Origin: Sinohyriopsis cumingii
Taxonomy: Eukaryota > Mollusca > Bivalvia > Unionida > Unionidae
Assembly: GCA_028554795.2 (NCBI GenBank)
Contig: CM068838.1
Span: 129,925,428-129,989,427, forward strand
Length of the DNA stretch: 64,000 bases
Direction of reading: 5' to 3'
Notes under the pieces: model-generated
What the model saw: the letters and a program-made list of their open reading frames with translations, nothing else
Databases searched by the model: none
Told to the model about the DNA's origin: nothing
Shown: positions 591 to 16,498 of the stretch, piece by piece
How positions within the stretch are numbered: position 1 is the stretch's first letter
How the letters are laid out: each line of letters starts with the position of its first letter
Translations under genes and position numbers: made by a program

Positions 591-640
<50 letters not shown>

Positions 641-697: not shown

Positions 698-713
698 GGC
701 CCTGAAAAGGGCC
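698..713 (-). terminator. histone-type 3' stem-loop, unit 1 (in left TIR)
   Basis: Read on the minus strand the sequence is GGCCCTTTTCAGGGCC: a 6-bp stem with a TTTC loop. It fits the metazoan replication-dependent histone consensus GGYYCUUHUHARRRCC, with CAAA before and ACTCC after. It begins about 25 nt after the stop codon of the 738-1388 gene. A purine-rich element (CGAAAAGAGA, 676-685) follows 12 nt later, where a U7 snRNA target would sit. Confidence 0.8.
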
Positions 714-737
714 TTTGTGTTTCTTCTTCTTCTTCTT

Positions 738-1388
738 CTATTTCCTCCACTTCTTCCACCAAGATCTCACTTTTTCCATTATTCCTTTCTTCTTCTTCTT
801 CTTCTTCTTCTTCTTCTTCTTCTTCTTCTCCTCCTCTGTTATCCAGTCAGGATGACCCATGGCTCTGAACTTTTCCTGGACTTTGATCCAATTGTTGTTT
901 AGCCGCTCAAACTCTGCCTCTTTCTTTTTGTTTTCCTGATCTTTTCTTTCTTTATTCCATCTCTCTTTAATCTTCTTGACCTCTACCTCCATCACTTTTC
1001 TCATCAACTCCTCTCCTTTCTTCAGTCTGTCCAGACCTCTCTCCACAAAAGAGCACTCTGTCCCATGTGACATATTTTCAAGAAAGCACCTGACTTTGCT
1101 TGCATTGTCAAGTGCTTCCTTTAGGCTTCCCACTCTGACATAGGTGGGATTTATCATACCTCTCAAACTCTTTTCCTCCTCTTCTATCATTCCTGCTATC
1201 ACTTCTTTTGCTACGTTTAGGCATTTAGCGTAGTACAGGTATTCTGCTATCTTCCATTCTTTTTCTAGTCTCTCCACTACATAGATACCATCCATTATCC
1301 AATAGTATATATGTACCAAGTTGTTAAACAACTGACTTGCAACCACCATCTTCGTTTTTATCATTCCGTAGAATGGTTCGAACATCAA
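738..1388 (-). CDS. left-arm unit 1: lysine-rich coiled-coil protein, 216 aa
   Basis: No known family recognised. The first half is helix-prone with several Tyr and Trp residues; residues about 120-180 are a charged coiled-coil region rich in Glu, Lys and Arg. It is followed by a run of 16 lysines encoded by a TTC/GAA-type microsatellite and a basic Trp-containing tail (KVRSWWKKWRK). ATG is chosen at 1388; a second ATG follows at once. A minus-strand TATAAG lies at 1401-1406 and the shared promoter motif at 1411-1438. The gene ends just before a histone-type stem-loop. It is the outermost of three similarly organised cassettes. The poly-Lys tract could vary in length between copies or be a sequencing artefact. 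Function unknown. Confidence 0.6.
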   Translation of the reverse strand: MMFEPFYGMIKTKMVVASQLFNNLVHIYYWIMDGIYVVERLEKEWKIAEYLYYAKCLNVAKEVIAGMIEEEEKSLRGMINPTYVRVGSLKEALDNASKVRCFLENMSHGTECSFVERGLDRLKKGEELMRKVMEVEVKKIKERWNKERKDQENKKKEAEFERLNNNWIKVQEKFRAMGHPDWITEEEKKKKKKKKKKKKKKGIMEKVRSWWKKWRK

Positions 1389-1400
1389 ACTTTGTGGGTT

Positions 1401-1506
1401 CTTATACTGAAAGCGCGGACGTGATGGAAAACATCCCCCTAAAACTTAAAATTGATATTACCTAGATCATCACTTAAAACGCGCGGCCGTGAAGGAAAAC
1501 ATCCCC
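1401..1506 (-). promoter_or_regulatory. cassette promoter region, unit 1
   Basis: On the plus strand it contains GCGCGGACGTGATGGAAAAC (from 1413) and a second copy, GCGCGGCCGTGAAGGAAAAC (1481-1500), about 65 bp apart. The intervening ATTGATATTACCTAGATCAT is shared with the unit 2 promoter. TATAAG at 1406-1401 on the minus strand lies about 15-20 nt before the ATG. Repetition of the motif before three genes argues for a transcription-factor site. Confidence 0.55.
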
Positions 1507-1671
1507 TACTTTTCTCATTTCATATAATATACTATCCACATAAGTTAAATCAGCAATAAACTAACCCCAAATCTACTATCCACACACACACACACACACA
1601 CACACGCAAAGCAATAAAATTAAACCCAAATTTATTATCCCCACAAACGTACTTGAGCGCTTACAAACAAA

Positions 1672-1707
<36 letters not shown>

Positions 1708-1786
1708 GAGTCAGTGTTTATATATACACTACTCTACCTACACACATTGGCAAATCGATGGTTATTTCTTTTCTAGAGCATTGTGT

Positions 1787-1802
1787 AGCCCTGAAAAGGG
1801 CT
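1787..1802 (-). terminator. histone-type 3' stem-loop, unit 2
   Basis: On the minus strand it reads AGCCCTTTTCAGGGCT: a 6-bp stem and TTTC loop, differing from the canonical form only in an A-U base pair at the stem base. AACA precedes it and ACACA follows. AGAAAAGAAA (1765-1774) is the downstream purine-rich element. It lies 30 nt after the stop codon of the 1832-2140 gene. Confidence 0.75.
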
Positions 1803-1831
1803 GTTTGTTTTAGAACTTCAGATGCACCTAT

Positions 1832-2140
1832 CTAATGCTGGCACCTTCCTGGTCTGGCACCACACACACATCTTCGACTCCAGTCTCTTTTTACTTTTTG
1901 TCTTGAGAGTGCAGAGGCGGGATGATTCGCTTCAGCACCCCAATCCTCTGTCTCTGGTATCTTGTAAGTCATCCTCTCTCCTATTTTCTTTTCCTCCTCT
2001 TCCCTCTCTCTTCTCTCCTCCTCTTCCTTCTTTATTCTTGCTTCTTCTACGATAGCCTCCGCGGACAGTTCATTTACTATGCGCCTGGCATATTCCAGGT
2101 GCATCTGGAGTTCTAGCAGTTTCACAATCCTTGTATTCAT
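1832..2140 (-). CDS. left-arm unit 2: charged helical protein, 102 aa
   Basis: No known family. Residues about 5-60 form a helix with a strongly charged Glu/Lys/Arg stretch (residues 34-55), then a short tail with several Cys and Arg residues (CVCGARPGRC). The ATG at 2140 lies 67 nt after the shared promoter motif (2207-2233). The stop is followed by a histone-type stem-loop. Its flanks are near duplicates of those of units 1 and 3, although the protein has diverged, so it is probably one member of a duplicated cassette family. Confidence 0.5.
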   Translation of the reverse strand: MNTRIVKLLELQMHLEYARRIVNELSAEAIVEEARIKKEEEERREREEEEKKIGERMTYKIPETEDWGAEANHPASALSRQKVKRDWSRRCVCGARPGRCQH

Positions 2141-2194
2141 TGTCTTACTGTTAACAGGTCGACGATGGGTAGCCCAACTGACGATTAGTTTTTA

Positions 2195-2292
2195 AGTTAT
2201 ACTAAAAGCGCGGACGTGAAGGAAAATATCCCCTAAGACACAAAATTGATATTACCTAGATCATAACCCAACAACGCGCGGACCTAAAAGAA
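2195..2292 (-). promoter_or_regulatory. cassette promoter region, unit 2
   Basis: Contains GCGCGGACGTGAAGGAAAAT (from 2208) and a more diverged second copy around 2275-2292, with the same 65-bp spacing and intervening block as unit 1. On the minus strand a TATAAC lies just downstream (about 2197-2202). Confidence 0.5.
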
Positions 2293-2623
2293 ACACTCAC
2301 TCACTTTTTTATACTACCCACCACTATTCTAAAAAATGTTCATTAATCACTTCAATATACTATCCACATACTCAAGGCAATCTAACCCTAAATCTACTCT
2401 CCCCACACGTCAAGCAGCAAAAAAAAAAAAACAAAAAAAAAAACAAAAAAAAAACTTGATCTTAATATACTATCCACACCAACGTACTTGAGCACTTACA
2501 AGCACACAATCATATACACAAACACAAACACTCACACTATAAAAGAGTCAGTGTTTATATACACACTACTCTACCTACACATATTGGCAGTTGGATTGTT
2601 ATTTCTTTTCTAGAGTATTGGGT

Positions 2624-2639
2624 AGCCCTGAAATCTTTG
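2624..2639 (-). terminator. decayed histone-type stem-loop, unit 3
   Basis: The 3' half (TTTCAGGGCTACCC on the minus strand) and the purine-rich element (2602-2611) are kept, but the 5' arm of the stem is altered, so it no longer pairs fully. It sits 18 nt after the stop of the 2657-2965 frame, the place the intact ones occupy. Confidence 0.5.
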
Positions 2640-2656
2640 TTTGCTATGGCAATCTT

Positions 2657-2965
2657 TTAGTTTCTAAGAATGCTACGTCCTCTCAGGATGGACTTTCTGG
2701 CGATAGGTCTGCTTCTTCGGAAAGAGAAGAAGAACTCTTTGGTGTCGATACGACAATCGACAAAGCCTTTGTCAGGTTCAGGTTGCTGCTGCTGCTGCTG
2801 CTGTTGCTGCTGTCTCTGAAGTCTGTACTTCTCTGTCCATTCTTCTTTCTCCCTGTTCACTTCTTCTCTGAAGAGCTCTTCGATCAGGTCTTCAGTGACC
2901 TTTAGCATTCTCACGTTCTCTATTTCTTCTGGCTTCGGTATCAGACTGTGTCTGACCCTATGCAA
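2657..2965 (-). CDS. left-arm unit 3: poly-Gln charged protein, start uncertain
   Basis: No known family. The frame encodes a charged helix (about residues 10-48) and a run of ten or more glutamines from a CAG-type repeat, then a basic tail. The frame has no ATG at 2965 (it opens with TTG); its first ATG is near 2908. An ATG in another frame lies at 2994-2996, so a frameshift near 2960 is possible. The shared promoter motif is at 3061-3087. Same layout as units 1 and 2: motif, repeat-bearing charged protein, stem-loop. The decayed stem-loop suggests this unit is losing function. Confidence 0.4.
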   Translation of the reverse strand: MHRVRHSLIPKPEEIENVRMLKVTEDLIEELFREEVNREKEEWTEKYRLQRQQQQQQQQQQPEPDKGFVDCRIDTKEFFFSFRRSRPIARKSILRGRSILRN

Positions 2966-3060
2966 ATTCGTTTAGCTTAGCTAGTTTGGAGCACATCTTC
3001 GTAGGAGGATGAGTCAACAATGGGTGGTTAGACTGGAGGCTACCCCGGTTCTTAAAGTCA

Positions 3061-3087
3061 AAGCGCGGACGTGAAGGAAAACATCCC
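3061..3087 (-). promoter_or_regulatory. cassette promoter motif, unit 3
   Basis: GCGCGGACGTGAAGGAAAAC followed by ATCCC, starting at 3063. It is identical to the core of the unit 2 motif. Only one copy is present here. Confidence 0.5.
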
Positions 3088-3216
3088 TCCACGGTTTTCG
3101 ATCCGCAACGTTTAATGAGTGTCATGAGAAAGATAGAGAGAAGTCAAAGTGCATGAATCAACATTCTTATAGTCAAACAAAAGACAAAGGCATTTTTTTT
3201 CCAAAACACAACATTT

Positions 3217-3222
3217 TTTATT
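3217..3222 (-). terminator. AATAAA polyadenylation signal for the core minus-strand genes
   Basis: TTTATT on the plus strand gives AATAAA on the minus strand, about 235 nt after the stop of the 3457-3939 gene, in a T-rich stretch (3190-3320) that holds no gene. Confidence 0.4.
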
Positions 3223-3456
3223 CAAAATCACTTAACACTAACCAACAACTCTAACATTTTTTAACAATAATCCAACAATATAACATCAAACATTTTTTTC
3301 AAATGACAAACATTTTTTCAATTTACACTCTACTTTAAACAGGGTTGGCAACGTTGTGAATGAAATTGTGATTTCCACTGTTGCAAGTCATTGAGTCATG
3401 GATGGACACTACGTTTCCTAGCTGAAGACAACAAAATAAGCATACTAGTCACAAAA

Positions 3457-3939
3457 TCATCGATTTACTTTCTCATCGTTTCTAGAAAAACCATGATCAA
3501 AATAAGTCACTAAATGTTCTTTTGCTGATAATAAGTGATCAATTTCGATCTCGACTTTCTCTTTGAATTTGTCAAAGAGGGCTTTGATGTAATGGATTTC
3601 TTGAGTCGTTAATGGAGGACAGAAATGTTCACGCAAGTCTTTATACCACCAACGTAACACGTCTTTTTTAAACAGACTCCAAGCTTCGTCCAGATATTCT
3701 TTGAATTTTTCTTCTTGACTGATGTTTTGACATTCATAGTAATCATGCTTCATCCATATCGTAACTGTGTCTGCCAGGTATGTAGCACAGTAGGAGACCA
3801 ATTGCTGTTCTTCTTCTGGACATCTCGACTTGATCATGATGTCCTTTTCGTCTTTGTCTTGGGATTCTCCTTCCACGGTCTCCTCACATTTCATTTCTAA
3901 AGTTTCTCCACTAGGCAAAGAGGGATAACAGTCTTCCAT
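3457..3939 (-). CDS. acidic hypothetical protein, 160 aa
   Basis: Family not recognised. The N-terminal 45 residues are acidic (many Glu and Asp); the rest is helical with aromatic residues (WW at about 98) and ends in a charged tail. The ATG lies 5 nt after the end of the major capsid gene stop, so it probably shares the capsid transcript. It lacks the Gly-Thr-His-Trp and catalytic Cys pattern expected of a maturation protease, so I do not call it that. Position suggests a late or virion-associated protein. Confidence 0.6.
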   Translation of the reverse strand: MEDCYPSLPSGETLEMKCEETVEGESQDKDEKDIMIKSRCPEEEQQLVSYCATYLADTVTIWMKHDYYECQNISQEEKFKEYLDEAWSLFKKDVLRWWYKDLREHFCPPLTTQEIHYIKALFDKFKEKVEIEIDHLLSAKEHLVTYFDHGFSRNDEKVNR

Positions 3940-3944
3940 GGCTT

Positions 3945-5270
3945 CTAATAGTCTAGAATGACTTCTCTCAAACTGTTGATTTCTATGGTATTGTCGAATT
4001 CTGCATACAGGAGGACGTTCACTGTGTGATCTGGAGGTGGATTTGCAAACTGAAGTTCCACACGAATCTGGCCCGATTTTATAGGGTGGAAATGTCCCTC
4101 ATCGCTGCCTTGGTCTGGAGTGAAATCAAAACCCCACAAAGCATAGCCTCCTGCATAATCGTCGTACGAAATACCGTGACTGGTGTTGGTTCCTAACTGT
4201 CCCGTGGCTTCGTACAGGGACAAGTACGATCTCAAATAATTCTTTGCGACACCAAAGTTGGGCTCAAAGGGTCGGGTACACAAGGTCTTGCCGTCGCGAC
4301 TGACTTCGATCTTGGACACATTGTAATGTTGAAACTCGAAAGGATTTTGATCGTGGGTTCCGTTGAAGGCTGAATTCCTGACGATACCAACAATCAAACG
4401 CTTGGGTAACTGTCCTTGGAACAGATGATCTTCGATCATAGATCGCTGTGCAGCGGGAATGGTGAACGTTTTCACTTCTACGCGTCGTATCGGATACTTG
4501 GCGGTCGTTCTGCTCAATGTCTGACTGACGTCGTTTCCCACTTTAGGTAACACTTCCACACGACGCACGTAAAGTCGGGCTTCTTGAATGATAGTTTTGT
4601 ATTCGTTGGCATGGGCCATCAAATGGAAAGCGGCACTGCTACGATTCAGTCTCAGACGGATATCCACCCCGTTCAGCAAATACTTTTCTTGTAACCACAT
4701 GTCCAAATGCAAACGATCCATCAGTTCTAAACTTCGCCCTTGCAGAATTTTCTTACGACGGTCGTTAAACCCCACATTGTGAGGATTGTCATCTTCTATC
4801 AGGACTGTGTCGCTAAACGTGCCTACACCTGCCGTGTCGGGTTTCCATACCACGCAAGCATCCAGATGAGTATTCTTGGTTTCTTTTCCGTACGTCAAGA
4901 GATTTTCCAAGTAGGCACGATATGGGTAAGTATCCATGCTGCTCCTGACCAGTTTGTTATTCAAGTACAAGTCCACTTCGCTGAACAAGGAATGCATGAA
5001 ATTGTTGACAGGAGCTACTCTAGCATCGCCTCCTGGATTGGTGTTGTCCTTTTTGATCACTTTCACTTTCAAATACAGGTAACTGCTATTCAGATCGATG
5101 TAATCTTCGGGTTGTCCTTTGATTTCAAACTCGATGGGAGCGGAATCCGTCAAAGAGGAGACGGGATGAAATTCCACCCATTGGGATTCTTGCATCGTCA
5201 TCATGGTAGGAGGCATGGCAAACAGATCCAGTTCCGACTTGGAACAAGCGCAAGACTCTCGGTGCATCAT
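3945..5270 (-). CDS. MCP: major capsid protein (double jelly-roll), 441 aa
   Basis: Recognised as the Polinton/adintovirus major capsid protein, which forms pseudo-hexameric capsomers from two jelly-roll domains. Family-like segments include QWVEFHPVSSLTDSAPIEF (residues about 30-48), the strand block DYIDLNSSYLYLKVKV, a FMHSLFSEVDLYLNNKLV segment near residue 95, and a beta-rich C-terminus with VELQFANPPPDHTVNVLLYA. Length is within the usual range. The frame is fully open, unlike penton and PolB. Start is the ATG pair at 5270/5267. A small basic-protein gene lies 15 nt upstream and an acidic gene 5 nt downstream, suggesting a late cluster. Confidence 0.9.
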   Translation of the reverse strand: MMHRESCACSKSELDLFAMPPTMMTMQESQWVEFHPVSSLTDSAPIEFEIKGQPEDYIDLNSSYLYLKVKVIKKDNTNPGGDARVAPVNNFMHSLFSEVDLYLNNKLVRSSMDTYPYRAYLENLLTYGKETKNTHLDACVVWKPDTAGVGTFSDTVLIEDDNPHNVGFNDRRKKILQGRSLELMDRLHLDMWLQEKYLLNGVDIRLRLNRSSAAFHLMAHANEYKTIIQEARLYVRRVEVLPKVGNDVSQTLSRTTAKYPIRRVEVKTFTIPAAQRSMIEDHLFQGQLPKRLIVGIVRNSAFNGTHDQNPFEFQHYNVSKIEVSRDGKTLCTRPFEPNFGVAKNYLRSYLSLYEATGQLGTNTSHGISYDDYAGGYALWGFDFTPDQGSDEGHFHPIKSGQIRVELQFANPPPDHTVNVLLYAEFDNTIEINSLREVILDY

Positions 5271-5285
5271 TTTTTTGTCTGTTTC

Positions 5286-5702
5286 TCAATAATCGAAAAC
5301 GTCTAAGTCTCGAACGGTTCTTCTTTTCTTTGCCTTTCTAGCTTGAAGTCTGGTGAAAGGGTGTTTTCTTCTTCGTCTCTTTCTGCCTTGTCCTTGCTGA
5401 ATGCCTGACTCGGTAGCGTGCAGGGCATTTATAGGTGTGTCTCGTCGGTCCAAAAGGTCTTTACCAGTTTGCAGCAAGACATTTTTGCCTGCCCTCAAGA
5501 AAGCTTCTTTAGAGTTTTGTTTGTCGATGATGACATTTTGGAGAAATTCTTTGCCTTGTGTCAGTGCCGCATCTTTCAAGGCGTGCAATCCGCGTGTCAC
5601 CATCGGTTTCAACACCGGGGCCACCGAACGAAAGGCTGATTTCAACATATCTCCTAAACCGTGTCCTCGCTGTCGAGCAACCCCTCGGTACACTGGATAC
5701 AT
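5286..5702 (-). CDS. small basic virion-type protein with GHGLG motif, 138 aa
   Basis: The N-terminus contains ARQRGHGLGDMLKSAF, a Gly-rich segment followed by an amphipathic helix, reminiscent of minor capsid or core proteins of adenovirus and adintovirus (protein VI / pX-like). The centre is helical; the C-terminus is highly basic (GRKRRRRKHPF near 105, ARKAKKRR near 122), fitting DNA or capsid binding. It sits between the penton-like and major capsid genes, where Polintons often carry such a gene. Assignment rests on composition and position, not a confirmed alignment. Confidence 0.6.
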   Translation of the reverse strand: MYPVYRGVARQRGHGLGDMLKSAFRSVAPVLKPMVTRGLHALKDAALTQGKEFLQNVIIDKQNSKEAFLRAGKNVLLQTGKDLLDRRDTPINALHATESGIQQGQGRKRRRRKHPFTRLQARKAKKRRTVRDLDVFDY

Positions 5703-5705
5703 GAC

Positions 5706-6637
5706 TTACGAGTCGTGAGAGAACCGTTTTCGAAAATGGAGTTTCACCGTGACTTTTCCTTTGGTGAATGAAATATTTTGTCCCAAATCTCCTTTTATAG
5801 CAATGTTGACCGTGTCCAAATAAGACTTGCTGACAGGCAAATAGTGAGGATGTACAAATTCGCGGTGGACGTGGTAAGTGTTTCCACCTTCTTCGTTAGT
5901 GGCCGTGGCAGAATCCACTTTGAAAGGAATGACACGTAGTAACGGTGCGGAGGTGTGTCCCACCACGTTGTACTCCACCACATCGGAGTACACAAACATC
6001 AAATTCAGTCCTTGGTTCAGTTCTACCGGGGCACGAAATAACTTGCTAAAAGACTCGTTGTCGTAAACGATTGGTAAATTCGTTTTTCTTGAGCATGGCC
6101 ATTCTCATGTCCATGTCTCCGCCCAACATGTCAAACAATTCAGGACAAAATAAAATGGACAGGATTTTACTCCCGTCAAATTTCATCAAGAAGCAACGAG
6201 CTGTTTTTGTATTCCATGGTGACACTTTTTTTGACACTCTCCAAAGCTTTCAGAAACACGACATTAAATCTGGAGGTTATGGTGCTCACCAAATGTTGAC
6301 CACTAAAATAATAGCCTGGAGGAATGAACAAGTGATAGGTGGTGTACTTTTGATTTTTTGTGCCAGGGGTTTTCTTGTCATATTTGCCATAGGTATCCAA
6401 GTACTGTTGCAATTGTTCGTCATGAACTTCTACATCAAAAAAATTTTGATTGGGAAGGACATTGAGGACTTGGGTCGGGTGAATGATTTCTACTAAAGCC
6501 ACTTCCCAATGGGCTTCGTGATCTAAGGGGATGGTCTGAGGTAATTTGGCCGTGTAACAGCACAACGTGTTCTTGGGAAATACTTCCATGGAACTGTCAC
6601 TGGGTAAGGTTAAGTAAAATTGGTTTTGGTGACTCAT
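5706..6637 (-). pseudogene. penton-like minor capsid protein, frameshifted
   Basis: The N-terminal frame (6637-6176) has LTLPSDSSMEVFPKNTLCCY and WEVALVEIIHP, typical of the Polinton minor capsid protein thought to form pentons. The C-terminal frame (ending 5706) has VYSDVVEYNVVG and PLLRVIPFK, also typical. The middle part reads in a third frame (6237-6046). Two frame changes are therefore needed, near 6180 and near 6075-6110. Either the gene is dead or indels were introduced in sequencing. It lies directly upstream of the basic protein gene and ends 4 nt before its ATG. Confidence 0.8.
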
Positions 6638-6717
6638 AATTCCAGAGTTCTGTGGCTGTCCGAGGGGTTGCTGGACGTCAGAGGCGTGTCTCCGCTCAAA
6701 ATGGGGTTGTTGTTGGA

Positions 6718-7038
6718 CTAGTGGCTGCCACTGGCACTGGACGCAAGGTTTCCGTGGTTCCCGTTCGAGGTGAATTTCAGGGAGGGATTAGGAAGCAGGT
6801 AACCGATGCAACTGCTCAATAAAATGGTCCACAATTGTTTGTCTCCTTGTTGCAAACTCAAATTGGCAATGGCTGCCCCGATGACACAATACACCACGAA
6901 GATTTGGCAGAAAAAGACGATTTGCGTTTTAGGCACACGTTCTCCGCACCACACCCACAAGGGTTGTTTTTGTAAATCTTGCACAGAGGAACTGGGTGAA
7001 GGAGTGGTCGACGTAGCTGCGTCTGTGTGAAAGGGCAT
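6718..7038 (-). CDS. conserved small membrane protein, 106 aa
   Basis: Two hydrophobic segments are visible: IVFFCQIFVVYCVIGAAIA (about residues 41-59) and LWTILLSSCIGYLLP (about 70-84), the latter followed by NPSLK. The N-terminus is Ser/Thr/Pro-rich. Small two-pass proteins ending in a GYLLPNP-like segment occur in many animal Polintons as I recall them, but no function is established that I know of. The ATG at 7038 is preferred over an in-frame GTG at 7047, which overlaps the integrase stop codon. Confidence 0.65.
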   Translation of the reverse strand: MPFHTDAATSTTPSPSSSVQDLQKQPLWVWCGERVPKTQIVFFCQIFVVYCVIGAAIANLSLQQGDKQLWTILLSSCIGYLLPNPSLKFTSNGNHGNLASSASGSH

Positions 7039-7043
7039 GATGG

Positions 7044-8153
7044 TCACTTCTTTTTATAGTCGATGACTTGCGAAGCGTCGATCCAAGAATCGAAACTGGG
7101 TGGATATCCTTTCCAACGTACTTTGACTTCTTTGACACGTCGTTTGCCTACTTTACGGGTTCTGCGTTCGAGAATGCGTTCGATGTCGTACACGTCGTCT
7201 TCATTTTTGGTGACACGTTGTAACTCGGGCAAATAAAACGTTCCTTTGAGCACTTCTCCGTTCATGTCTTCCAATTTATAGACGGCAGGATGACGGCCAT
7301 GCACTCGTCCAGTGACACGAGACAATTCGGTCGTCCAGTTAGGTAAGTAACCTTTGTCGAAAGTGCGTTTGGTTTTGCCAATGCGCACCCAATCTCCTAC
7401 GGTCAACTCTCCACTTTTCTTGGGGACAGCCCTCGTCGGGGACGTCAAAAACAGGCGCTCAAACACCAACACTTCGTTGTCGGGAGTCACTTCTTGCGGG
7501 GCACGTCCGATGCTTCGATGGTAAGATTGGTTGTACGCTTGCACCAGGTGCGGTAAGATGTCGATGTACTTCAGAGTGTGGTGATGCGTAAAATATTTCC
7601 ACATGCGTTCTTTCAAAGTGCGTTGAAAACGTTCCACGATGCTGGCTTTGGTTTCGGGATTCTCGGTGGTAAAAAAATGAATGTCACGTTTCTTTAATTC
7701 TTTTTGGAAAGCTTGGTTCAGAAATTCGGTACCTTTGTCCGTTTGCGATCGAAGAGGGTGACGACCACTTTGTTTCAACACTCGTTGCAGGGCTCGCACT
7801 AACTCGCTGCTCGATTTGGAAGTCAAGGGCACGACCCAGGCAAATTTGGAAAAGACGTCGATGACACAAAACAAATATTTGTAGCCACGATTGTAACTGG
7901 CCAAATGAGAGACATCGGCTAAATCGGCTTGCCATTGATGATCCATGCCTTCCACTCGGGTGCGACTTCTGGTAAACTTGCGTCGGATGGGTTTGTGTAA
8001 AGTGTAGGTAGCTTGTTCTTGTAACCATCGTTGCACTTGAGGTAAACGGAGACTTTTCAATCGAGTTTTGGCAGCACGATACAATTTTTGAACTCCTGCG
8101 TAACCTGCAGGATGAGAGGGATCGTACTAAATGCTGGCTAAGACTTTTTCCAT
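7044..8153 (-). pseudogene. INT: retroviral-type integrase with chromodomain, early in-frame stop
   Basis: Catalyses insertion of the element into the host chromosome. Counting from the ATG at 8084, the rve core carries D54 (WQADLAD), D116 (SQTDKGTEF) and E151 (IVERFQRT), the DDE triad. The C-terminal ~50 residues are a chromodomain (VYDIERILERR ... VRWKGYPPSFDSWIDAS), which should bind histone marks and steer integration. The family-like N-terminal region (YDPSHPAGYAGVQKLYRA) lies upstream of 8084, in frame with an ATG at 8153, but is cut off by TAG at 8127-8129. A product from 8084 would keep catalytic and chromo domains but lack part of the N-terminal zinc-binding region. Next to the two-pass membrane protein gene. 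Confidence 0.85.
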
Positions 8154-8170
8154 TTTTTTGTGTTTGTGTG

Positions 8171-8826
8171 TTAATAAGACACCCACTCTTGGAGGATGCT
8201 ACTCTTTTTCTCTTGGGGTACTTTCTTGGATTGCAATGCTTTGCGTGTGCAACCGGCAATAGGTGTTGAAGAGGAGGATGTCTGAGCGGGGGATATCGGT
8301 TCTTGTTTCACTTCTGTCTTCACTTCTGTCTTCACTTTCTTTTTCTCTTGTGATGAAGAAGGGGTGGCATCATCTTTTTAATCCATCCAATTCTGGAGGT
8401 AGGTGGTGTTGTTAACTTGCGTACTTTTTCTGGTGGAGTTTGAAACCCTTCTTCTTCTTCTTCTCCTTTTTCTGTCTTGGTCACTGGTAGTGGTGGTACT
8501 GGTACTGGTACTGGTGATGGTGCTGGACTTTTCATCAAGGTCTTAAAATCTTTCAGAGTGGGTAGAGCTGTTTCGTCTAAAGCTTTCTGGTGAACGAGTT
8601 GCAGTCGTTGCAAGAGCTGACCGTACTTTTGCGATTTTTCTGTTTCGGGCAAATCTTGGCGATCCATCAAGGACTGCAATTCGTGTTGCAGCTGGGACAT
8701 CTCGCTCAAATGGGGATTGGGAGGTAAATGCGGAGTGCGTTGTTCTTGCCAACGATGGTATTCCATCCATCGTTTGTAAGGCACTAAAGCTAGTTTTCGT
8801 CCTTCCATGGGGTTGTCAGGGGTCAA
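8171..8826 (-). pseudogene. proline-rich coiled-coil protein with KxE motifs, one frameshift
   Basis: The first frame (8826-8332, 164 aa) begins near LALVPYKRWMEYHRWQ, has a Gln/Leu-rich coiled coil (about residues 40-85), a Pro-Val repeat (about 102-112) and an acidic run. At about 8378-8382 (a run of five T on the plus strand) the reading frame is lost. The alternative frame continues to TAA at 8171-8173 and holds three close sumoylation-like motifs (VKTE, VKTE, VKQE). The LVPYxRW start resembles a protein common in Polintons, but its role is unknown to me. A short upstream AT-rich box (about 8855-8860) may be the promoter. Confidence 0.5.
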
Positions 8827-8856: not shown

Positions 8857-9258
8857 TTATCTTGCTCCCACCAGTCCTCCCAACATGGTTCCCAAGACTC
8901 CTTTCAGTAAGGGACCTAACAAGAGGGGTAAAATGCCTCCACGTTGGACCAACATCTTCTTCTTTTGACGAATGGGAATTTTCTTTTGAACCATTTGGCG
9001 AAGAACGTAACGATGTTTACCTAAGCATTGTTTCTGGTGTTTGGACAAAGGGATCGTGCCTTTCAAGACGTTCAAACAACATTCGCACACGGTATCGATG
9101 ACCTCTTTGGAGGCTGTTTGAATGAGTTTTTTTCGTAGAGGTGGAGAAGCTTTGGACAGGACAGATAACATGTCCCCATGTTTGACTAAACGAGGAGGCA
9201 GTCCTTTCCTTTTCTTTCCTTGGGGTTTGGAAGAAGGATGCTTTCTGGAGGGTGACAT
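8857..9258 (-). CDS. conserved Polinton small protein with Gly-rich hydrophobic tail, 133 aa
   Basis: Pattern recognised from many animal Polintons: an SKASPPLRKKLIQTASKEVI helix, a CECCLNVLKGTIPL segment, a basic region (KHRYVLRQ, RQKKKMLVQRGG) and a C-terminal hydrophobic glycine-rich tail (LLLGPLLKGVLGTMLGGLVG). The tail could insert in or disrupt membranes, as do the amphipathic helices of adenovirus minor proteins, but this is inference. The frame is open. A TATAAA on the minus strand at 9313-9318 lies 55-60 nt before the ATG. Confidence 0.65.
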   Translation of the reverse strand: MSPSRKHPSSKPQGKKRKGLPPRLVKHGDMLSVLSKASPPLRKKLIQTASKEVIDTVCECCLNVLKGTIPLSKHQKQCLGKHRYVLRQMVQKKIPIRQKKKMLVQRGGILPLLLGPLLKGVLGTMLGGLVGAR

Positions 9259-9312
9259 CTTTGAGTCTTCAGCACCAAAAACACTGATACCCCTACTTAG
9301 TCACAGACCTTT

Positions 9313-9318
9313 TTTATA
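9313..9318 (-). promoter_or_regulatory. TATA box of the 8857-9258 gene
   Basis: TATAAA on the minus strand, 55-60 nt upstream of the ATG at 9258. Spacing fits a short 5' leader. Confidence 0.5.
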
Positions 9319-9343
9319 CTGGAACGCGTCGCCACTGATTGTC

Positions 9344-10282
9344 TTAACGTCGTATCAACTTGAGGACAGGCATGACACGTCGTGTAGGGGTACGCAACGG
9401 ACTAAATCGAGCCAGTTCTTGCTTGGACAAATCCAGTAAACTTTATAACATGCCCGATCTTTCTTGGACTTTGACTTTGGGAGCAGGTACTTTGTGAGCC
9501 GCAGCCACTGTTGCGAAACTGGAGGGTCCTGCCACTGGGAAGTTCTTGGGGTCATCAACGGAGAAGTTCTTGGTGTGATCAACGTCTCCAAGTACTGTTC
9601 GGTTCTTGGTGACATCAACGGGAGAAGTGATGGAACCTGAGGCTACCGGAGACGCAGTCACTGCCGTGGCAGGTCGTGGTTTGCGAGTGCAAGGTTGCGT
9701 CCTGGCCGAAGTGCCTCTCTTGCGACTAGTTTTCTTCTGTGGGCTTTTCTTTGTCTGGAGACTTTTTCTATGTTTCTTTTTCTGAGGGCTTCTTTTCTTT
9801 TTCCGGGGTGGTGTCTGGTAAGAGGAGGGTCCCGCCACTGGAGAAGTTCTTGCAGACACGGGTCTTTTTGGGGACCTGGTCTTTTTCTTTTTCTTCTTGG
9901 AGTTTCGTTTGACTGCTTTTTTTTGTCTTGGGGAAAACTTTGGGAGCATTAGGATCCCATCTTAAGAGAGCGCGAATGATGACCTCTCCTAGAGTACCGC
10001 TCCGTACAGGTTTCAAAATGATTTGATTTTTGGTTTGAGTGTCAATGCGGGGATCGGCCAGTTGGGTTAAAGCAACTTTGTTTCAATCGAAAAGCGTTTG
10101 GTTTGATGAGGAATCTGAATTATCCCTTGAAGTAATTGACGTGCCGTCACCGTGAACCATCGTAAGACTTCTTTGAGACTAGCTTCTAAGACACGAGCTC
10201 GTATTTGTGGATTTTTTTCTCGACTGATGCCGTACAAGGCACGAATCAATTTGACGGGAAGATGCGACTGAAGGGACGTCAT
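9344..10282 (-). pseudogene. very basic, possibly DNA-packaging protein, broken
   Basis: Three consecutive frames read as one protein. 10282-10067 has a helical region (LPVKLIRALYGISREK); then a frame with SGTLGEVIIRALLRWDPNAP; then 9949-9443 with long Lys/Arg/Pro/Ser tracts (NSKKKKKKTRSPKRP). Frame changes fall near 10075 and at the T8 run 9917-9924. An in-frame TAA (9443-9445) precedes a continuing frame ending in TPTRRVMPVLKLIRR at TAA 9344-9346. The composition resembles viral core proteins that coat DNA; no family is proven. A TATAAA lies at 10324-10329. It could instead be two genes. Confidence 0.5.
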
Positions 10283-10323
10283 GTTCACACTGTATTTGAG
10301 ACAGACGAAAAGGGTCTGAGGTT

Positions 10324-10329
10324 TTTATA
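10324..10329 (-). promoter_or_regulatory. TATA box of the basic-protein gene
   Basis: TATAAA on the minus strand, about 42-47 nt upstream of the ATG at 10282 and just beyond the ATPase stop codon. Confidence 0.5.
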
Positions 10330-10348
10330 GATTTTTTGTGGAATGAAG

Positions 10349-11077
10349 TTAAGTCGAGGACGGAGACGTGTACAGGACAGGCCCTCCATCTTGGCACCAG
10401 TGGTGAAACAAGTGGGTACGAAATCGCAAATCCTCGGGGGTCGTAGGTTTCAAATCGACGAGTAAATAGGCGTGTGGAGTGTGAGTGGCATCGTCGTACG
10501 CCTGAGTCAGCCAAGGCGTTCCTAACTGTTTGGCTAAGACTTGCACTTGCGATTTATCTCGAGGGCTTTTAAACAAGACCACGTAATGCGCATTGAGACT
10601 GATGGTGCGATGGGCTTTACTTTGTTGAAACAAATTTTGAGTGATGTAAACGACACTGGCATTAAGGTGATGTCCTTTGCGCGTGAACCACAGTTTAATT
10701 TCTTCTTCGTCTTCTCCTAACATGTCGTCAAAAATGACCAAATGGGTTTGACGGGAGTCAGAGACGATGCCATCGTCTTCTTTAGGAATGCCTTCCACAA
10801 ACACGATGGAATCGCCTTGACTTTCTCGCAGGAGGCTGTACGCCGATTGCCACTCTTTGTAACACCACACGATGCGTTGAGGTGGTCGATCGATCAAATG
10901 ATGTTTATGTTCGATCAAACATTTGACAAATTCGGTTTTGCCTGAACCGCTAGGTCCAGCAATGAGCATGTTAAAGGGATGACGAAGATACAAAGCCTCC
11001 CAACTGGTACGATCTAAGTGTTCGTCGATGACTTTGACAGTGGAGGAAGAGGGAGCAGAGACAGTAGAAGTAGCCAT
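10349..11077 (-). CDS. ATP: genome-packaging ATPase (FtsK/HerA type), 242 aa
   Basis: Expected to pump the DNA genome into capsids. Walker A is GPSGSGKT at residues 41-48, preceded by HPFNMLIA. Walker B is LVIFDD at 113-118. A later segment, VVYITQNLFQQSKAHRTIS, contains the Gln and Arg typical of the family's sensor/arginine region. I chose the ATG at 11077 over the in-frame ATG at 11185 because the TATA box (11123-11130) lies between them and the domain begins soon after. The frame is open over the full length. Confidence 0.9.
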   Translation of the reverse strand: MATSTVSAPSSSTVKVIDEHLDRTSWEALYLRHPFNMLIAGPSGSGKTEFVKCLIEHKHHLIDRPPQRIVWCYKEWQSAYSLLRESQGDSIVFVEGIPKEDDGIVSDSRQTHLVIFDDMLGEDEEEIKLWFTRKGHHLNASVVYITQNLFQQSKAHRTISLNAHYVVLFKSPRDKSQVQVLAKQLGTPWLTQAYDDATHTPHAYLLVDLKPTTPEDLRFRTHLFHHWCQDGGPVLYTSPSST

Positions 11078-11122
11078 AGTGTTAGGAATGTCACTTGTGA
11101 CACGAGAAAAACAAGACGAGAG

Positions 11123-11130
11123 TTTATATA
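11123..11130 (-). promoter_or_regulatory. TATA box of the ATPase gene
   Basis: TATATAAA on the minus strand, 46-53 nt upstream of the ATG at 11077. It decides against the upstream ATG at 11185. Confidence 0.6.
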
Positions 11131-11146
11131 CTTTTTTCAGGACACG

Positions 11147-11152
11147 TTTATT
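11147..11152 (-). terminator. AATAAA signal after the tail-anchored membrane protein gene
   Basis: AATAAA on the minus strand 8 nt past the stop of the 11160 frame and just before the ATPase TATA box. It contrasts with the stem-loop ends of the arm genes. Confidence 0.5.
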
Positions 11153-11159
11153 GAATGTT

Positions 11160-11535
11160 TCAAATATGAACAACACGAAAGACAAAAATACATAAAAGCC
11201 AAATAGTGATGTACAGAAATAAAAAACACATCAAAACGATCAAAGTGGAATATAAACAAGTCTCTGTGCAACATGTTCTGGGTAAGCAAGATGTCCTAGG
11301 GACAGTGTGTAATGTTCTTACAGTCTCTACATGAGGTACGGTCACACAAGTGTCCTCCCGGAATGACCTTTCAGGAATGTCCACGACAGTCCTGTCCTGG
11401 GTGACGGGTTCTTCTGGTACTGTCACTAACACAGGTTGAAAAGGTGCAAGGCTCACAAGCGCATTCCACTTCAGAAACCCCACACTTGAATTGTGCCTTT
11501 CTAAACTTGTTTTGTGTTTCTCTGAAAGTATTCAT
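11160..11535 (-). pseudogene. tail-anchored membrane protein, probable frameshift
   Basis: An ATG at 11535 opens a frame with a Cys cluster (CGVSEVECACEPC) that closes early. From about 11440 the other frame carries a Val/Thr/Glu-rich stalk (VTVPEEPVTQDRTVVDIPER), two more cysteine groups and a C-terminal hydrophobic stretch (STLIVLMCFLFLYITIWLL) that looks like one transmembrane anchor. A frame change near 11435-11450 would unite them. No family recognised; a surface or envelope-associated role is only a guess. Confidence 0.45.
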
Positions 11536-11580
11536 CTTGTTCACTTGGTCCTGGTAGCCACAATGAACTATTGATCTTGC

Positions 11581-14535
11581 CTAGGGTTTCCGTTTTATAT
11601 ACAGACCAATAACGACGTGTCCATACGTTAAGGTGAAATGATTGGGAAGTCGCACTCGCTCCTGGTACACGATTTGATAGACTTTTTGCAAGGGTCGACT
11701 AACGATGTGGTGAGTGGGTAAACGTACAATCTTGTTGGGTTGATAGGTGGTCACTTTAAAGTGTTCGTCCTCTCCAGACTGCAAGGCTTCTTTCAATACC
11801 CCAAAGTTCACCACTCGACTGGTACGATAATTCAGAGTCAATCCTTTCACTTTGCACTGCGTGTGCACTTCTCCTTGTTTGTCCCGATATTCGTACCCGT
11901 AATTTTTAGGACCACCATACTTAGAATCTTGTCGTCGGGATGCTCGTCTTGTCAGGCTCCTAAACGGTCTCCTTCGATGTCAGGGTGCTGTTGACTCGGG
12001 TGATGGACGTAAATGCAACTGTCCGTGTCAAAGTACAGGACGCGTTCCCCTAACAGTTCTAAAGTTTCGTACAGTTTTAAGCGAGCATGAGCTGTCCACG
12101 TAAGCCGCAATGATGACATTTCCAAAAGGGTCGTCTTGTACAAAGTCCAGATCTTCTTCGTAATTGACCAAGATCAAATCCTCGCGGTTTCATGTATTTG
12201 GTTTTGTCGTGAATCATCTGAAAGTAGCGGGAAGGTTCAGTCAAATACTTCGTCTTGGGTAAACACGGACTTGTGCCATTTTGCCCCACAAACAATTTAA
12301 CATCACTTTGGCAAACGATCGCCTGCCTTCGTTTTTCTCGGATGTGGTCTAAAGAGATGCCTTCTTGTGCATAGTATTTCTCTTTGAATGTCTTTTGTCT
12401 TCGGGAGGTGACACCAGACGATAGCCACCAGGACGGATAGCCACTGGCTTCTTGTTTCAGTTTCAAAAAAGCATCCACGTAGTCTGCGAAAATCCGTTTT
12501 TGCGTGGGGTCACCCTTGTGGTATTGTTGTGTCTTGGGAAAGTGACAAATTTCGTACACTTCTAACAGTTGGTATCCCATGTCCAGAGCTTTGAACAATT
12601 CTACGCTGACCCCACGTCCCCGTCAAGGCCCGTTCTTCCTGGGTGTGCTGACCAAGGCTAGTCTTGGTTGCACGTTTCGGCACAAGTTCGGCACAAAGGA
12701 AACATCAGTTTGCCTTGACAATGGTGAGGGTAAGACGGGATGGTACAAGTCCGTGCGAGGCAAAACTTTGCACTGATCAAGCCTTCGTATTGTCGAATGT
12801 TTTTCAGGTCGATGTGTTCCGTGAATAATTGTGGGTGCCCTGCAGGAAAGCGACAATATTTGCACACGTAGGGATACAGCGAACACACGTCCAAGTATTT
12901 CATTTCTTCTCCTTTCTCTTCGTCGGCTTGGTACATCAAACAGGTGGCATTGGTCCTTCCTCCGTACAAACTATCTCTCGGGTTCAGGGGGTCCACCAGC
13001 ATGTAACTTGCCACGAGACATTTAAACTCGGGATCGGTTTTCAAACGGTGATCGTACTCGTGTTCCCACATTTCCACACTTGGTATCCTTCCTGTTCTAA
13101 CTTTAGGCGTCGCTGACAAGTGGCCTGGTACAAGTCTTCCATGGTTCGTTGTAGAAACTGATTTTTAGTTTTACGGTCAGGGTAACAGACGGGACATCCG
13201 TGAAATAGGCAGCCGTTAAACTCGTACACGATCTTGGGATTTTCTAAGTCCCAGCCATCTACCGAATGCGTTCCAATGGTCTTTTCGCCCCTCTGTTGCG
13301 GGCATGCTGAATCCATTTGTCTTCCTTGTCGCACAAGTAATGTAACCAACGTAGGGCTTTGACCGAGTATTGACGTTTGACATAGTTGGTCGTTTGAGGA
13401 CTGATGACCGCCACGGTGTTTTCAGGCATGAATCTTTGTCTGTACACTAAGGAACACGGCTTTGGCAATGGTGCAAGCTTCTTTCAAAGGATCGACCCCT
13501 CCGTGTTCCATGAACAGTTCTCGAAATTTTCCACAGCAACGCCGTAAAATGTCCACGTCGGAACGACAATACTTTAGCATTTCTTCAATGTTTGTGTTGC
13601 TCTCGATTATTATAACCACGGTCACATTTCTCACAGTAATATCTGTATCCCAGGAATCCAGTGATATTGGTAATGATATCGAAATGGTCATCGTGATGAT
13701 AAAGGTGAATGTATTTTCCATCCTTAAAATCTTGGCCTCGAAACAACAGAGGTCCGCACACTTCTTGAGGGTGCACTTTCAAGGTGTAGCGTGGAGCTAG
13801 GACATCTTGCAATGTCTTTGGACAGGTCCCGCTTGTTGTAACAGGAGTTCTGCTTCGTTTCGTTGTTTGGGCTCGGTCCGATTGTCGAATAGTTTTCCAG
13901 GCTGTTTTCCTTCTGCCGTGTCGTTCTTGTTGGCATAGGTTCGCCCCACCACGATAGCCCGGGCTAAACACATCTGGTCATGAGGGTTGTAAATTTGGAC
14001 GAGGCTACGCTTAATGCTGCGAAGATCGTTCACCAATAACATCTTTTTGCGTCCAGTCCCTTGAGGAAGAGAGACGTGAGCCATTTTCAGTGTGGCTTTT
14101 CCATCGGTGATGTCCAACTGGTCATTGGATTGTTGCACCTGTTGTATCTTGTCCATGACTTTGGAAGGGGTCAGTTCTGTGGGTCTGCTAAACTCGATCC
14201 AAACAGGGGACTTCAAACCATCGTGTTGTATGGATAGTGTCAAGCGATCGTCTTCTTTGGGTTGACATTGTCGCTTGAGTGCGGTGAGTAAAGAATCCCA
14301 CATCTCGGTGATGAACCCTTCTGCTTTCTCTAAGGGTACTTCGGGACTTGAAATCTTTAAACTTCACCGTGTAGGTGTAAGCCGTGGTTCTAAATTTCTT
14401 AGAGGAGCGCTTTTCTGTCTCTCGAATGGAATAGTATTTGTCAGGGTTAACTAAGGGCGGTGAACTTGGTTGAGAGGGCTTGGATTCTGGTTCACTCATG
14501 TCGTCTTCAAAATCACTGGCATGAATTTGTGCCAA
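11581..14535 (-). pseudogene. PolB: protein-primed family B DNA polymerase, multiply frameshifted
   Basis: Replicates the element from its ends, primed by a terminal protein in the family model. Motif A (YLDVCSLYPY) is near 12868-12900, motif B (KVMLNCLWGK) near 12283-12318, and motif C (YFDTDS) near 12018-12035, in the right order. YEFNGCLFHGCPVCYPDR near 13200 is typical of Polinton PolB. At least eight successive frames are needed across the region (e.g. 14303-13797, 13971-13585, 13119-12658, 12598-12077, 12143-11952, 11868-11581). The frame is open from about 14640 without a clear ATG; one ATG in another frame is at 14664-14666. All catalytic motifs survive, so breaks are recent or are sequencing indels. 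Confidence 0.85.
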
Positions 14536-14663
14536 GATTTCAGCTCTGGTACGAGGCGATAGATCACGTTTCTGCCTCTTACTTTCTTCTTCTTCTTTCT
14601 TCTCAAATGAATTAGATCGTTTAATCTTGAAAGCAAAAAGTCAAATGACTCAAGTTTAAACAC

Positions 14664-14760
14664 CATGAGCTACTTTATAGTCCTGGCAGACCAGCGTATA
14701 TAAAAGTGTACTTGTCTTGTCCTTTCACTATTCATTTCACTCTCTATCTGATCCACAACG
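14664..14760. promoter_or_regulatory. divergent promoter between PolB and the zinc-knuckle gene
   Basis: TATATAAAA at 14697-14705 faces right, 56-64 nt before the plus-strand ATG at 14761. On the minus strand TATAAA lies at 14674-14679, and the palindromic TATATA can also serve leftward. The genes diverge from this 100-bp interval. Confidence 0.5.
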
Positions 14761-15201
14761 ATGGAAGAGACTAGCCAGATGGAACGTTTCATCAGAGCGG
14801 TGCGAGGGGTCATTAGAAAATTCTCTTCAGACTAGCCTTCGGACTACTCTCCTTCCTTTCGAGATAAAAGTGAAGATACTTGCTATATCCGTCAAAAGAA
14901 AGGGCATTGGTCTTCAGAGTGTCCAGACCGTCAAAAAAAGAAAAACAGGGGTTAAAAGAGACGAAAGTCAAGATACCTGTTATTATTGTAAAGTAAAAGG
15001 ACATTGGTCTCCAGATGCCCCAAAAGAAACAAGAGGAGTCAGAAGAAGAGAGGGATTCTTCAGAGAAAGAAGAGGAAGAAGAAGAGGAAGAAAGCAGGAC
15101 AGGTGAAGAAAAAGAAACAGGAGAAGAAAAGAAGAAGGGAAGAAAGTGAGGAGGAAGAAGAGGAAAAGCCTGTGAAGAAATCTAAAAAACAGAGAGAGTA
15201 A
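14761..15201 (+). pseudogene. CCHC zinc-knuckle, Lys/Glu-rich protein, broken
   Basis: The ATG at 14761 follows a good TATA box, but the frame meets TAG at 14833-14835. The same frame then holds a zinc-knuckle-like segment (CYIRQKKGHWSSEC, first-pair Cys replaced by Arg) at about 14881-14922. A second knuckle (CYYCKVKGHWSPD, last Cys missing) lies in another frame near 14980-15020. A Lys/Arg/Glu-rich tail continues in the first frame to 15201. Tandem knuckles suggest nucleic-acid binding. Breaks could be decay or an unrecognised intron. No histone-type stem-loop follows it. Confidence 0.45.
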
Positions 15202-15439
15202 ATAATGACACAAAAGAAGTGAATGAACTTTTTTAAGAGTGTTTATGTTGTGAATTGAATTGTAAACTATGGATAACAGAATACATTAATGATCAAAGGT
15301 AAGTGACTTTGGGTTATGATTTTAAAATAAGAACCTACACTCACGCACTCATACACAGACACGTACTACAGGGGTAAAATGGGTTGTTATTTTGAGTTAT
15401 TGGCAATTGAAATGGTATCTCTTTTGAAGAGAAGTGGGT

Positions 15440-15455
15440 GGCCCTGAAAAGGACC
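15440..15455 (-). terminator. histone-type 3' stem-loop, right-arm minus gene
   Basis: The minus strand reads GGTCCTTTTCAGGGCC, then ACCCA, the canonical histone 3' flank. The stem is six pairs with one G-U and a TTTC loop. TCAAAAGAGA (15418-15427) is the purine-rich downstream element, and TTTCAATTGCC (15402-15412) follows, as in both TIRs. It lies 27 nt after the stop codon at 15482. Confidence 0.85.
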
Positions 15456-15481
15456 GTTATTTTCTTGGTGTAGGGGTGAGT

Positions 15482-16005
15482 TTAAGCAATCAGCTTTAAC
15501 TGTCTTAAGCCTTTGCCACGTCCGAGGCCTACTTTTGATGATGATGATTGGGTTGAAATCACTAAGGGTGGTAAGGTAGGCTTAGTCTCAGGGTTGGCGT
15601 GTTTAGCTCGGGATGGTCGTATTCTCTTCGGTCGTGATAAAGAAGTCTGATATGTCCAACAGTACCGTGACTGTTTGACTTTCACCCTCTTGTTTCTTTG
15701 CTGCTTCTTCTTCTTCTTGCTGTTTTTTTTCTTCTTACCTCTTCTTCTTGCTGCTGTTGCTGTAGCAGAAAAGCTTGTTCTGCTTCCTTTTGTCTCTGTA
15801 TAAATTTCTCCAATTCTTCTTTCTTTCTCTGTCGAAAATTCTCCACGTGCGGTAAAGATGGTAACGAAGGTTCTGGAACAAATTCTTGCGAGGTCAGAAA
15901 ATCCACAAAATCCCAGTTTACGGCTTCTGAAAGTAAGTCCGGGTTCCCTTGGGTAGTATCCACCGATCGTGCACCCCCATGGATCGTTTTCTGAGTTTCC
16001 GTCAT
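15482..16005 (-). CDS. right-arm Gln/Glu coiled-coil protein, predicted two exons
   Basis: Exon 1 (16005-15739, 89 codons) has an acidic/aromatic N-terminus (VNWDFVDFLTSQEFVPEP), then a charged coiled coil and a Gln/Glu run. It ends at a consensus donor, GAG|GTAAGA. A plausible acceptor, ATATCAG, ends at 15647, giving a 92-nt intron (15647-15738) in phase 0. Exon 2 (15646-15482, 54 codons plus stop) has a basic Arg/Pro-rich region and a Gly/Lys tail. Without splicing the exon 1 frame closes at 15682. The stop is followed by a histone-type stem-loop. Family not recognised. It shares a short divergent promoter with the plus-strand gene at 16229. The intron is predicted by eye only. Confidence 0.5.
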
Positions 16006-16228
16006 GTTGAATCACTGTCGCATAGATTGACAGCGCACAGGCGCTAGCGAATGTATATAAGCTACGTGACGTCAGAGACTGCTCTCTTCCGATTGGATGC
16101 GGACTGACTGAATTTCGTCACGCGTGTTTGGATTGGTCAACGAACTCAATCCGTTTCAATCCTTCCTCTCCCTATAAATAAGCGCAGTTCAGTGCAATCA
16201 CTCACTCACCTATTCTCGTAGCCGCAAG
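16006..16228. promoter_or_regulatory. divergent promoter with CCAAT, CRE and TATA elements
   Basis: Rightward: TATAAATA at 16173-16180, 49-56 nt before the ATG at 16229. Leftward: TATATA at 16054-16059, about 50 nt before the ATG at 16005. Between them are a palindromic TGACGTCA (16067-16074) and two GATTGG boxes (inverted CCAAT; 16091-16096 and 16131-16136). Paired CCAAT and TATA elements between divergent genes recall animal H2A/H2B gene pairs. Confidence 0.6.
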
Positions 16229-16470
16229 ATGTGGACTGACGTTAAATCTTCCACCCTCGTGTCTTCAATGATGTTCAGGACGGACATGCTCATGTATGTC
16301 CGATCCAAGTGGACCGTTGTCCACAGGACCACCAGCAGTCTGTGGATACGAAGAGTCTACATAGAGAGACAAGGTTGCCTCAAGAGGACTCTGATGTATG
16401 GCCCTGCTGTAAGACGCAGCTTGAGGACAAGAAGATGCCACAGATGCACTTTATGTTAAGGGCATATTAA
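16229..16470 (+). CDS. right-arm short gene of uncertain frame
   Basis: The ATG at 16229 follows TATAAATA and opens 76 codons, Arg-rich with TAA at 16457-16459. A second overlapping frame is open from about 16244 to TAA at 16468-16470 and looks more protein-like (His, Cys, Gln and Asp rich, e.g. HAHVCPIQVDRCPQDHQQSV), but it lacks an ATG. A frameshift near 16240-16265 could join the true start to that frame. Either way the stop lies 13-24 nt before a near-perfect histone-type stem-loop. No family recognised. Confidence 0.45.
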
Positions 16471-16482
16471 CATAAATCCAAA

Positions 16483-16498
16483 GGCCCTTTTCAGGGCC
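16483..16498 (+). terminator. histone-type 3' stem-loop, right TIR, plus strand
   Basis: GGCCCTTTTCAGGGCC with CCAAA before and ACTCC after. Stem, loop and flanks follow the metazoan histone pre-mRNA pattern. CGAAAAGAGA (16511-16520) starts 12 nt downstream as a U7-like element, then TTTCAATTGCC (16526-16536). It serves the plus-strand gene at 16229. Confidence 0.85.

Follow-up and report, generated by a model that had tools for sequence, protein, structure and literature searches.

The question raised by a stretch of 64,000 nucleotides (nt) from the bivalve Sinohyriopsis cumingii (assembly GCA_028554795.2, contig CM068838.1, forward-strand positions 129,925,428 to 129,989,427; hereafter the window, meaning this stretch at its full length) is whether a mobile element can place some of its genes, and not others, under the expression programme of its host's histone genes. 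The window contains a Polinton (Maverick) element in which the core genes form one leftward block, three accessory genes (A, B and C) follow one another in tandem on the left, and two more (I and J) form a divergent pair on the right. To our knowledge, histone-type 3′ ends are treated in textbooks as specific to metazoan replication-dependent histone genes. An initial annotation of the window had proposed that the accessory genes, and not the core genes, end in such signals, and at the level of sequence this is borne out by covariance matches, by conservation in genes B and C, by matches to host histone genes and by an AATAAA polyadenylation signal behind the core block. Taken as a whole, these observations are very probably best explained by accessory genes that run on the host histone expression programme and structural genes that follow the ordinary poly(A) route.

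Histone-type 3′ signals of the accessory genes

A search of the 64 kb with the Rfam model RF00032 returned four matches and none elsewhere, and these are the same four 16-nt stem-loops, on the same strands, that the initial annotation had given. Two lie above the gathering score of 34 bits, namely those of gene A at 698-713 on the minus strand (36.2 bits, match 673-718) and of gene J at 16483-16498 on the plus strand (37.5 bits, match 16478-16523). The other two lie below it, namely those of gene B at 1787-1802 on the minus strand (29.5 bits, match 1762-1807, E 2.3e-4) and of gene I at 15440-15455, also on the minus strand (28.6 bits, match 15416-15460, E 4.8e-4). A fifth, decayed stem-loop reported for gene C at 2624-2639 (minus strand) is real, as the same site is intact in all ten other copies of the element that were picked by their capsid gene. 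A chance origin of the stem-loops was rejected in view of the Rfam matches and of the pattern RGYCCTTTTCAGGGCY, which occurs four times in the window and in none of 100 dinucleotide shuffles. Independence of all four signals was likewise rejected, because the copies at 698 and 16483 are part of the terminal inverted repeats of the element.

The finer description of these signals needs some amendment. The basal pair of the gene B stem is indeed A-U, and the stem of gene I, which had been counted as an exact match to the consensus, holds one G-U pair. The purine-rich element said to follow the stems has the core GAAAAGA, the core of the histone downstream element (HDE), 13 nt past the stem in gene A (678-684, minus strand) and gene J (16512-16518, plus strand); it is also found in gene B (1767-1773, minus strand), where it is invariant among the capsid-picked copies, and the corresponding core in gene I reads CAAAAGA. 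The flanks ACCCA or ACTCC given for the bases directly after the stem do not apply to gene B, which has ACACA. Stop codons had been placed 13-30 nt before the stems, and the ATG-started frames of A, B, C and J do end 24, 29, 17 and 23 nt away, respectively. This fails for gene I, where the nearest ATG-started stop is 226 nt off because the gene is frame-broken in the window copy; the stop of the frame that carries its C-terminal part is 26 nt from the stem, and a scan of 17 other copies of I found 14 in which a frame open over 55 codons or more stops 21-27 nt ahead of the stem, and three without such a frame.

The core block ends differently. Past its last gene there is an AATAAA polyadenylation signal (3217-3222, minus strand) followed by a GT-rich stretch, and this arrangement, located between the core block and the C promoter, is present in 11 of 11 copies, the window included. 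As read from the sequence, each accessory gene is thus set apart as a self-contained unit that ends in a predicted host-type replication-dependent histone 3′ signal, composed of stem-loop, 13-nt gap and GAAAAGA.

The host's own histone genes provide the standard of comparison. Host H4 gave 114 matches, most of them in tandem repeats about 8.3 kb apart and most on small contigs, and the part read in detail (3.2 kb) holds one H4 gene with its promoter and the adjoining H2B and H2A, in the order H4-H2B-H2A. The stem-loops of these genes are GGCCCTTTTTAGGGCC (H4), GGCCCTTTTCAGGGCC (H2B) and GGCCCTTTTAAGGGCC (H2A), that of H2B being identical to those of Polinton genes A and J over 16 of 16 positions. 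Both H4 and H2B carry GAAAAGA 13 nt past the stem, the offset shared with the Polinton, and in H2A the element is GAAAAGG, one base later. Since the host U7 snRNA should pair with these elements, a common core at a common distance constitutes an indirect test of the fit to U7.

Signals of this kind recur on a large scale in the host genome (2.9 Gb, 1138 contigs). An exact pattern consisting of CCCTTTTCAGGGCCAC, 11 free bases and GAAAAGA, which leaves out the first two stem bases, occurs 8771 + 9039 = 17,810 times, and the reversed-pattern control does not occur at all. With at most three signals of the G-C type per copy, this suggests, as a rough inference, some 6,000 Polinton copies or more. 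For the capsid gene, 95 of 30046 candidate matches were scored, with 97-100% identity over 440-441 residues and an internal stop in one. Genome-wide RF00032 matches were scored for 75 of 589472 candidates, all of them above the cut-off, and 30 of these 75 were read; all 30 lie in Polinton sequence (blastn assigned 29 to A, I or J, and one, L006, was placed by its reading frame and a neighbouring B signal). High-scoring histone stem-loops in a genome may therefore be transposon-borne, a warning for annotation in general.

As these 30 loci had been chosen by stem-loop score, their conservation is given by construction, and both arms of ten copies picked by the capsid gene alone were used instead. 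Stem-loops proved to be present in these related copies: in the left arms the structure is intact in B (10/10), C (10/10) and A (7/7 of those reached, three stretches having ended short), and in the right arms, where the site was reached in two of ten, both I and J are found in each, one J having a broken pair. A scan that required the loop and no fewer than five pairs found 30 stem-loops in the two arms altogether; all six pairs are formed in 29, and the spacing to GAAAAGA is exactly 13 nt in 27 and differs by one base in three. Over all 98 stem-loops scanned, the exact 13-nt distance is kept in 80, and 85 have the core within 12-14 nt. Genes A, I and J have G-C as their basal pair, and genes B and C have A-U, with few exceptions, so that both sides of the pair have changed together.

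Per-site diversity in the capsid-picked set is 0 across stem-loop and GAAAAGA in both B and C, in a table of 11 rows that includes the window's own decayed C and in which the rows for gene A are partly short and its values unusable. Around these two elements, the values for gene B are 0.09-0.24, both in the spacer and in the blocks ahead of the stem and past GAAAAGA; for gene C they are 0.04-0.14 past GAAAAGA and in the blocks more than 8 nt ahead of the stem.

Promoter blocks shared with host histone genes

The case made by the sequence is stronger than the initial annotation had it, for the accessory promoters carry exact or near-exact copies of putative promoter blocks of host H2B and H4. 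The H2B block of the host is the 24-nt sequence GATGTTTTCCATCACGTCCGCGCT. Its counterparts in the window, all on the minus strand, are a proximal block of gene A that is identical over 24 nt (1410-1437), a second block of gene A with 3/24 differences (1478-1505), a block of gene B with 2/24 differences (2205-2232) and a block of gene C with 1/24 (3060-3087). Gene B also has an H4-type block, TTTCTTTTAGGTCCGCGCGTT, at 2273-2300 (minus strand), with 21 nt identical to the host H4 promoter. Among the 11 copies, at least one block identical to host H2B over 24 nt is found in six and a block with no more than one difference in all 11, and the 21-nt identity to host H4 holds in ten, the eleventh having three differences. 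In host H2A the H2B-type block lies in reversed orientation and has 7/28 mismatches to the Polinton block. Genome-wide, a 23-nt version of the block, with A or T allowed at one place, occurs 30,227 times, and its reversed-pattern control 0 times.

These blocks account for part of a restricted set of similarities. When the element of the window and 20 fetched arms were compared, without low-complexity runs, against the host histone DNA (3.2 kb), the only exact common runs of at least 15 nt were the two promoter blocks, the stem-loop and the downstream element; as controls, the rest of the window gave runs of at most 14 nt and the Polinton core of at most 13 nt. Genes A, B and C, judged on these matches, thus also begin with candidate promoter blocks that match those of host H2B and H4 exactly or almost exactly, and the core genes are without both types of signal.

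The divergent promoter between I and J (16006-16228) is of a different kind. It contains TGACGTCA, two GATTGG motifs (inverted CCAAT) and TATAAATA. Of 34 loci looked at, the start of J was found in 21 and the promoter was readable in 20; among these 20, TATAAATA is present in all, both GATTGG motifs in 18 and the full TGACGTCA in 17. By its motifs, which are only a cyclic AMP response element (CRE), CCAAT and TATA, this promoter is histone-like but generic.

Proposed mechanism and alternative explanations

In the mechanism proposed here, accessory transcripts would be cut past the stem-loop by the host SLBP/U7 small nuclear ribonucleoprotein machinery and would carry no poly(A) tail, and their synthesis, stability and translation would be largely confined to S phase. 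Expression of the helper genes would thereby be coupled to the presence of host replication factors and nucleotides, and the structural genes would rely on ordinary polyadenylation. The signals within both inverted repeats would, in addition, keep transcripts that run outward from A and J from reaching into host DNA. In its full form, the proposal that the element took over both promoter and 3′ end of the histone programme for its accessory genes only, which would then be expressed poly(A)-free in S phase and possibly at the histone locus body, and that its life cycle would consist of two programmes coupled to host DNA replication, appears likely. If so, a parasite would have found a new means of sensing and exploiting S phase, through histone ends and promoters on several non-histone genes; this might help to explain the thousands of copies of the element, and it would offer a natural test of what suffices for a histone-like mRNA.

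Several observations weigh against this proposal. Two of the four window signals score under the Rfam gathering value. The host U7 was not found: RF00066 gave no match, although the search controls gave none either, and a U7 pattern search returned 18 matches, against 31 for its control, without a convincing hairpin. An SLBP Pfam profile run over the whole genome had no match, and no control genome matched either. With respect to conservation, the 8 nt before the stem of gene C are also at 0 diversity and its spacer is at 0.02; 13 of the 98 stem-loops are without an exact GAAAAGA core at 12-14 nt, and one of the seven A copies has GAAAAAA. In the set picked by stem-loop, the stem-loop of gene I (0.034) and its HDE block (0.092) are not clearly under the flanks (0.05-0.11), and the HDE block of gene J reaches 0.145. 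The copies are, moreover, close relatives, so that invariance among them is weaker evidence than it is among unrelated genes. Four Polinton contigs from elsewhere have no RF00032 match, and AATAAA occurs 64-133 nt past the stem of gene C in 8/10, and of gene B in 2/10, of the other copies.

The last of these points gives some room to the view that the signals work as optional ends, histone-type in S phase and polyadenylated otherwise, as is described for H2A.X (PMC7807067). The AATAAA motifs after the C and B stems make a backup poly(A) route or a dual mode possible, and gene B of the window itself has one 195 nt past its stop codon. Genes A and J of the window, however, have neither AATAAA nor ATTAAA within 250 nt of their stop codons, and none follows the A stem in seven copies, although only two of those stretches span the full 150 nt. 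The view of optional ends is improbable.

A still smaller probability attaches to the view that the element once captured a piece of a histone gene, whose signals have since been carried along passively and do nothing. In favour of it are the short stretches that match the host histone repeat exactly, and the point that transposition alone would spread thousands of copies. Such remnants would not, however, be expected to show a stem-loop and GAAAAGA that are invariant in B and C while the blocks further out vary, nor matches of at least 15 nt to the host repeat that are confined to regulatory blocks and do not extend to their surroundings. Five different genes carry the signals, each in the sense of the gene. 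The slot of gene A, furthermore, is occupied by two dissimilar proteins in different copies (seen across the window, L067, L075, L079 and L020) with a common tail like KIRSWWRNRRN, and both retain the same 3′ signal.

That the hairpins act as DNA, perhaps in the replication or packaging of a linear genome with protein priming, and resemble histone ends only in appearance, is hardly credible. Each terminal inverted repeat does have one at its inner end, but the B, C and I copies are internal, and hairpins acting as DNA need no fixed orientation, no GAAAAGA at the host spacing and no histone promoter blocks.

The element and its place among known systems

The region 306-16927 (16,622 bp) is a Polinton/Maverick, recognised by its terminal inverted repeats, a target-site duplication, an integrase with rve and chromodomain, a Pox_A32-type ATPase and family B DNA polymerase (PolB) domains. 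The target-site duplication is the 6-bp direct repeat TTGGTG on both sides of the element (300-305 and 16928-16933). The terminal inverted repeats measure about 420-450 bp; the left one (306-722), in blocks of 98% and 94% complementarity, has the gene A stem-loop at its inner end, and the right one (16474-16927), complementary to it, has that of gene J.

The core genes lie on the minus strand. The predicted major capsid protein gene (3945-5270), which is without a histone signal, has 1942 homologues, and among the best 120 listed several are named F54H12.2-like in clams and oysters, proteins which we take to be Polinton capsids. The integrase (7044-8084) matches PF00665 (3.9e-14) and PF00385 (2.1e-8), the packaging ATPase of the FtsK/A32 type (10349-11185) matches the Pox_A32 family PF04665 (1.9e-8), and the PolB gene (12077-14303) is spread over several broken frames, one of which matches PF03175 (3.2e-10). 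General Pfam scans of the window frames gave no protease family at E 0.1 that might represent a maturation protease, no dedicated search having been made. Between PolB and gene I there is a plus-strand frame (14717-15106) with two tandem copies of one stretch, one of them CYYCKVKGHWSPDAP, which is zinc-knuckle-like and derives from a 97-nt-spaced repeat. Outside the element, at about 24000-63000 of the window, long interspersed repeats recur several times and were met in the hairpin scan as recurrent chance hairpins.

Among the accessory genes, A (738-1385, minus strand) encodes 215 residues, has nine homologues with 46-58% identity and is predicted to be mostly helical (mean predicted local distance difference test score, pLDDT, 78.6). 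Gene B (1832-2140, minus strand) encodes 102 residues, gene C (2657-2965, minus strand) lacks in the window copy an N-terminal stretch that is present in other copies, and the N-terminal part of gene I, frame-broken in the window, lies at 15682-16005 (minus strand). Gene J (16229-16459, plus strand) encodes a basic protein of 76 residues with a Cys-rich tail, for which the homologue search found no homologue. Many copies carry B, C, I and J as open and similar frames, and in some they are broken or missing. No histone family was detected by Pfam in any of the five accessory genes, and a role of these genes as helpers in replication or cell-cycle control is a guess from their position. A 118-nt repeat, 87% identical between 1679-1796 and 2516-2633, spans the 3′ flanks of B and C, and suggests that the tandem B and C cassettes may have arisen by duplication.

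Relatives beyond the host genome were sought in several collections. The four foreign contigs mentioned above (L101-L104) are Polinton contigs filed under bacterial metagenome-assembled genomes (MAGs), from Escarpia and Bathymodiolus symbionts and two others, and are apparently host contamination; as L101 is mostly without arms and L102-L104 look partial or decayed, the absence of an RF00032 match from them is weak evidence. In L102, a sub-threshold match to the twister-P1 ribozyme (11734-11798; 28.9 bits, gathering score 67.2) lies near the capsid gene. Five scans of viral contigs, made with the capsid protein, an alignment of capsids and three DNA patterns, yielded 0 loci, and phage records yielded none with the capsid protein. 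The histone-signal trait looks lineage-specific on this thin evidence, and nothing shows it to be general to Polintons. The initial annotation knew of no earlier account of such a trait, and literature searches, the broader of them covered by their best matches only, likewise turned up no report of histone-type 3′ ends on a Polinton, an adintovirus or any other virus or transposable element.

Compared with the Polintons/Mavericks and adintoviruses of animals, the element is thus conventional in its terminal inverted repeats, 6-bp target duplication, rve-chromo integrase, PolB, packaging ATPase and predicted capsid gene, and it differs from other Polintons in the histone-type 3′ signal, which was neither found in the four MAG contigs nor reported in the literature searched. 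With the replication-dependent histone genes of the host, the accessory genes share the stem-loop, GAAAAGA 13 nt further on (as in H4 and H2B), promoter blocks of 24 and 21 nt, continuous reading frames and a short distance from stop codon to stem; unlike them, they encode no histones and sit in a mobile element. A further parallel is the adomavirus “Histoid”, a viral histone-like protein, in that both are cases of animal DNA viruses drawing on histone biology; in adomaviruses it is the Histoid protein itself that resembles a histone (PMC11071296), whereas in the Polinton only the regulatory signals do.

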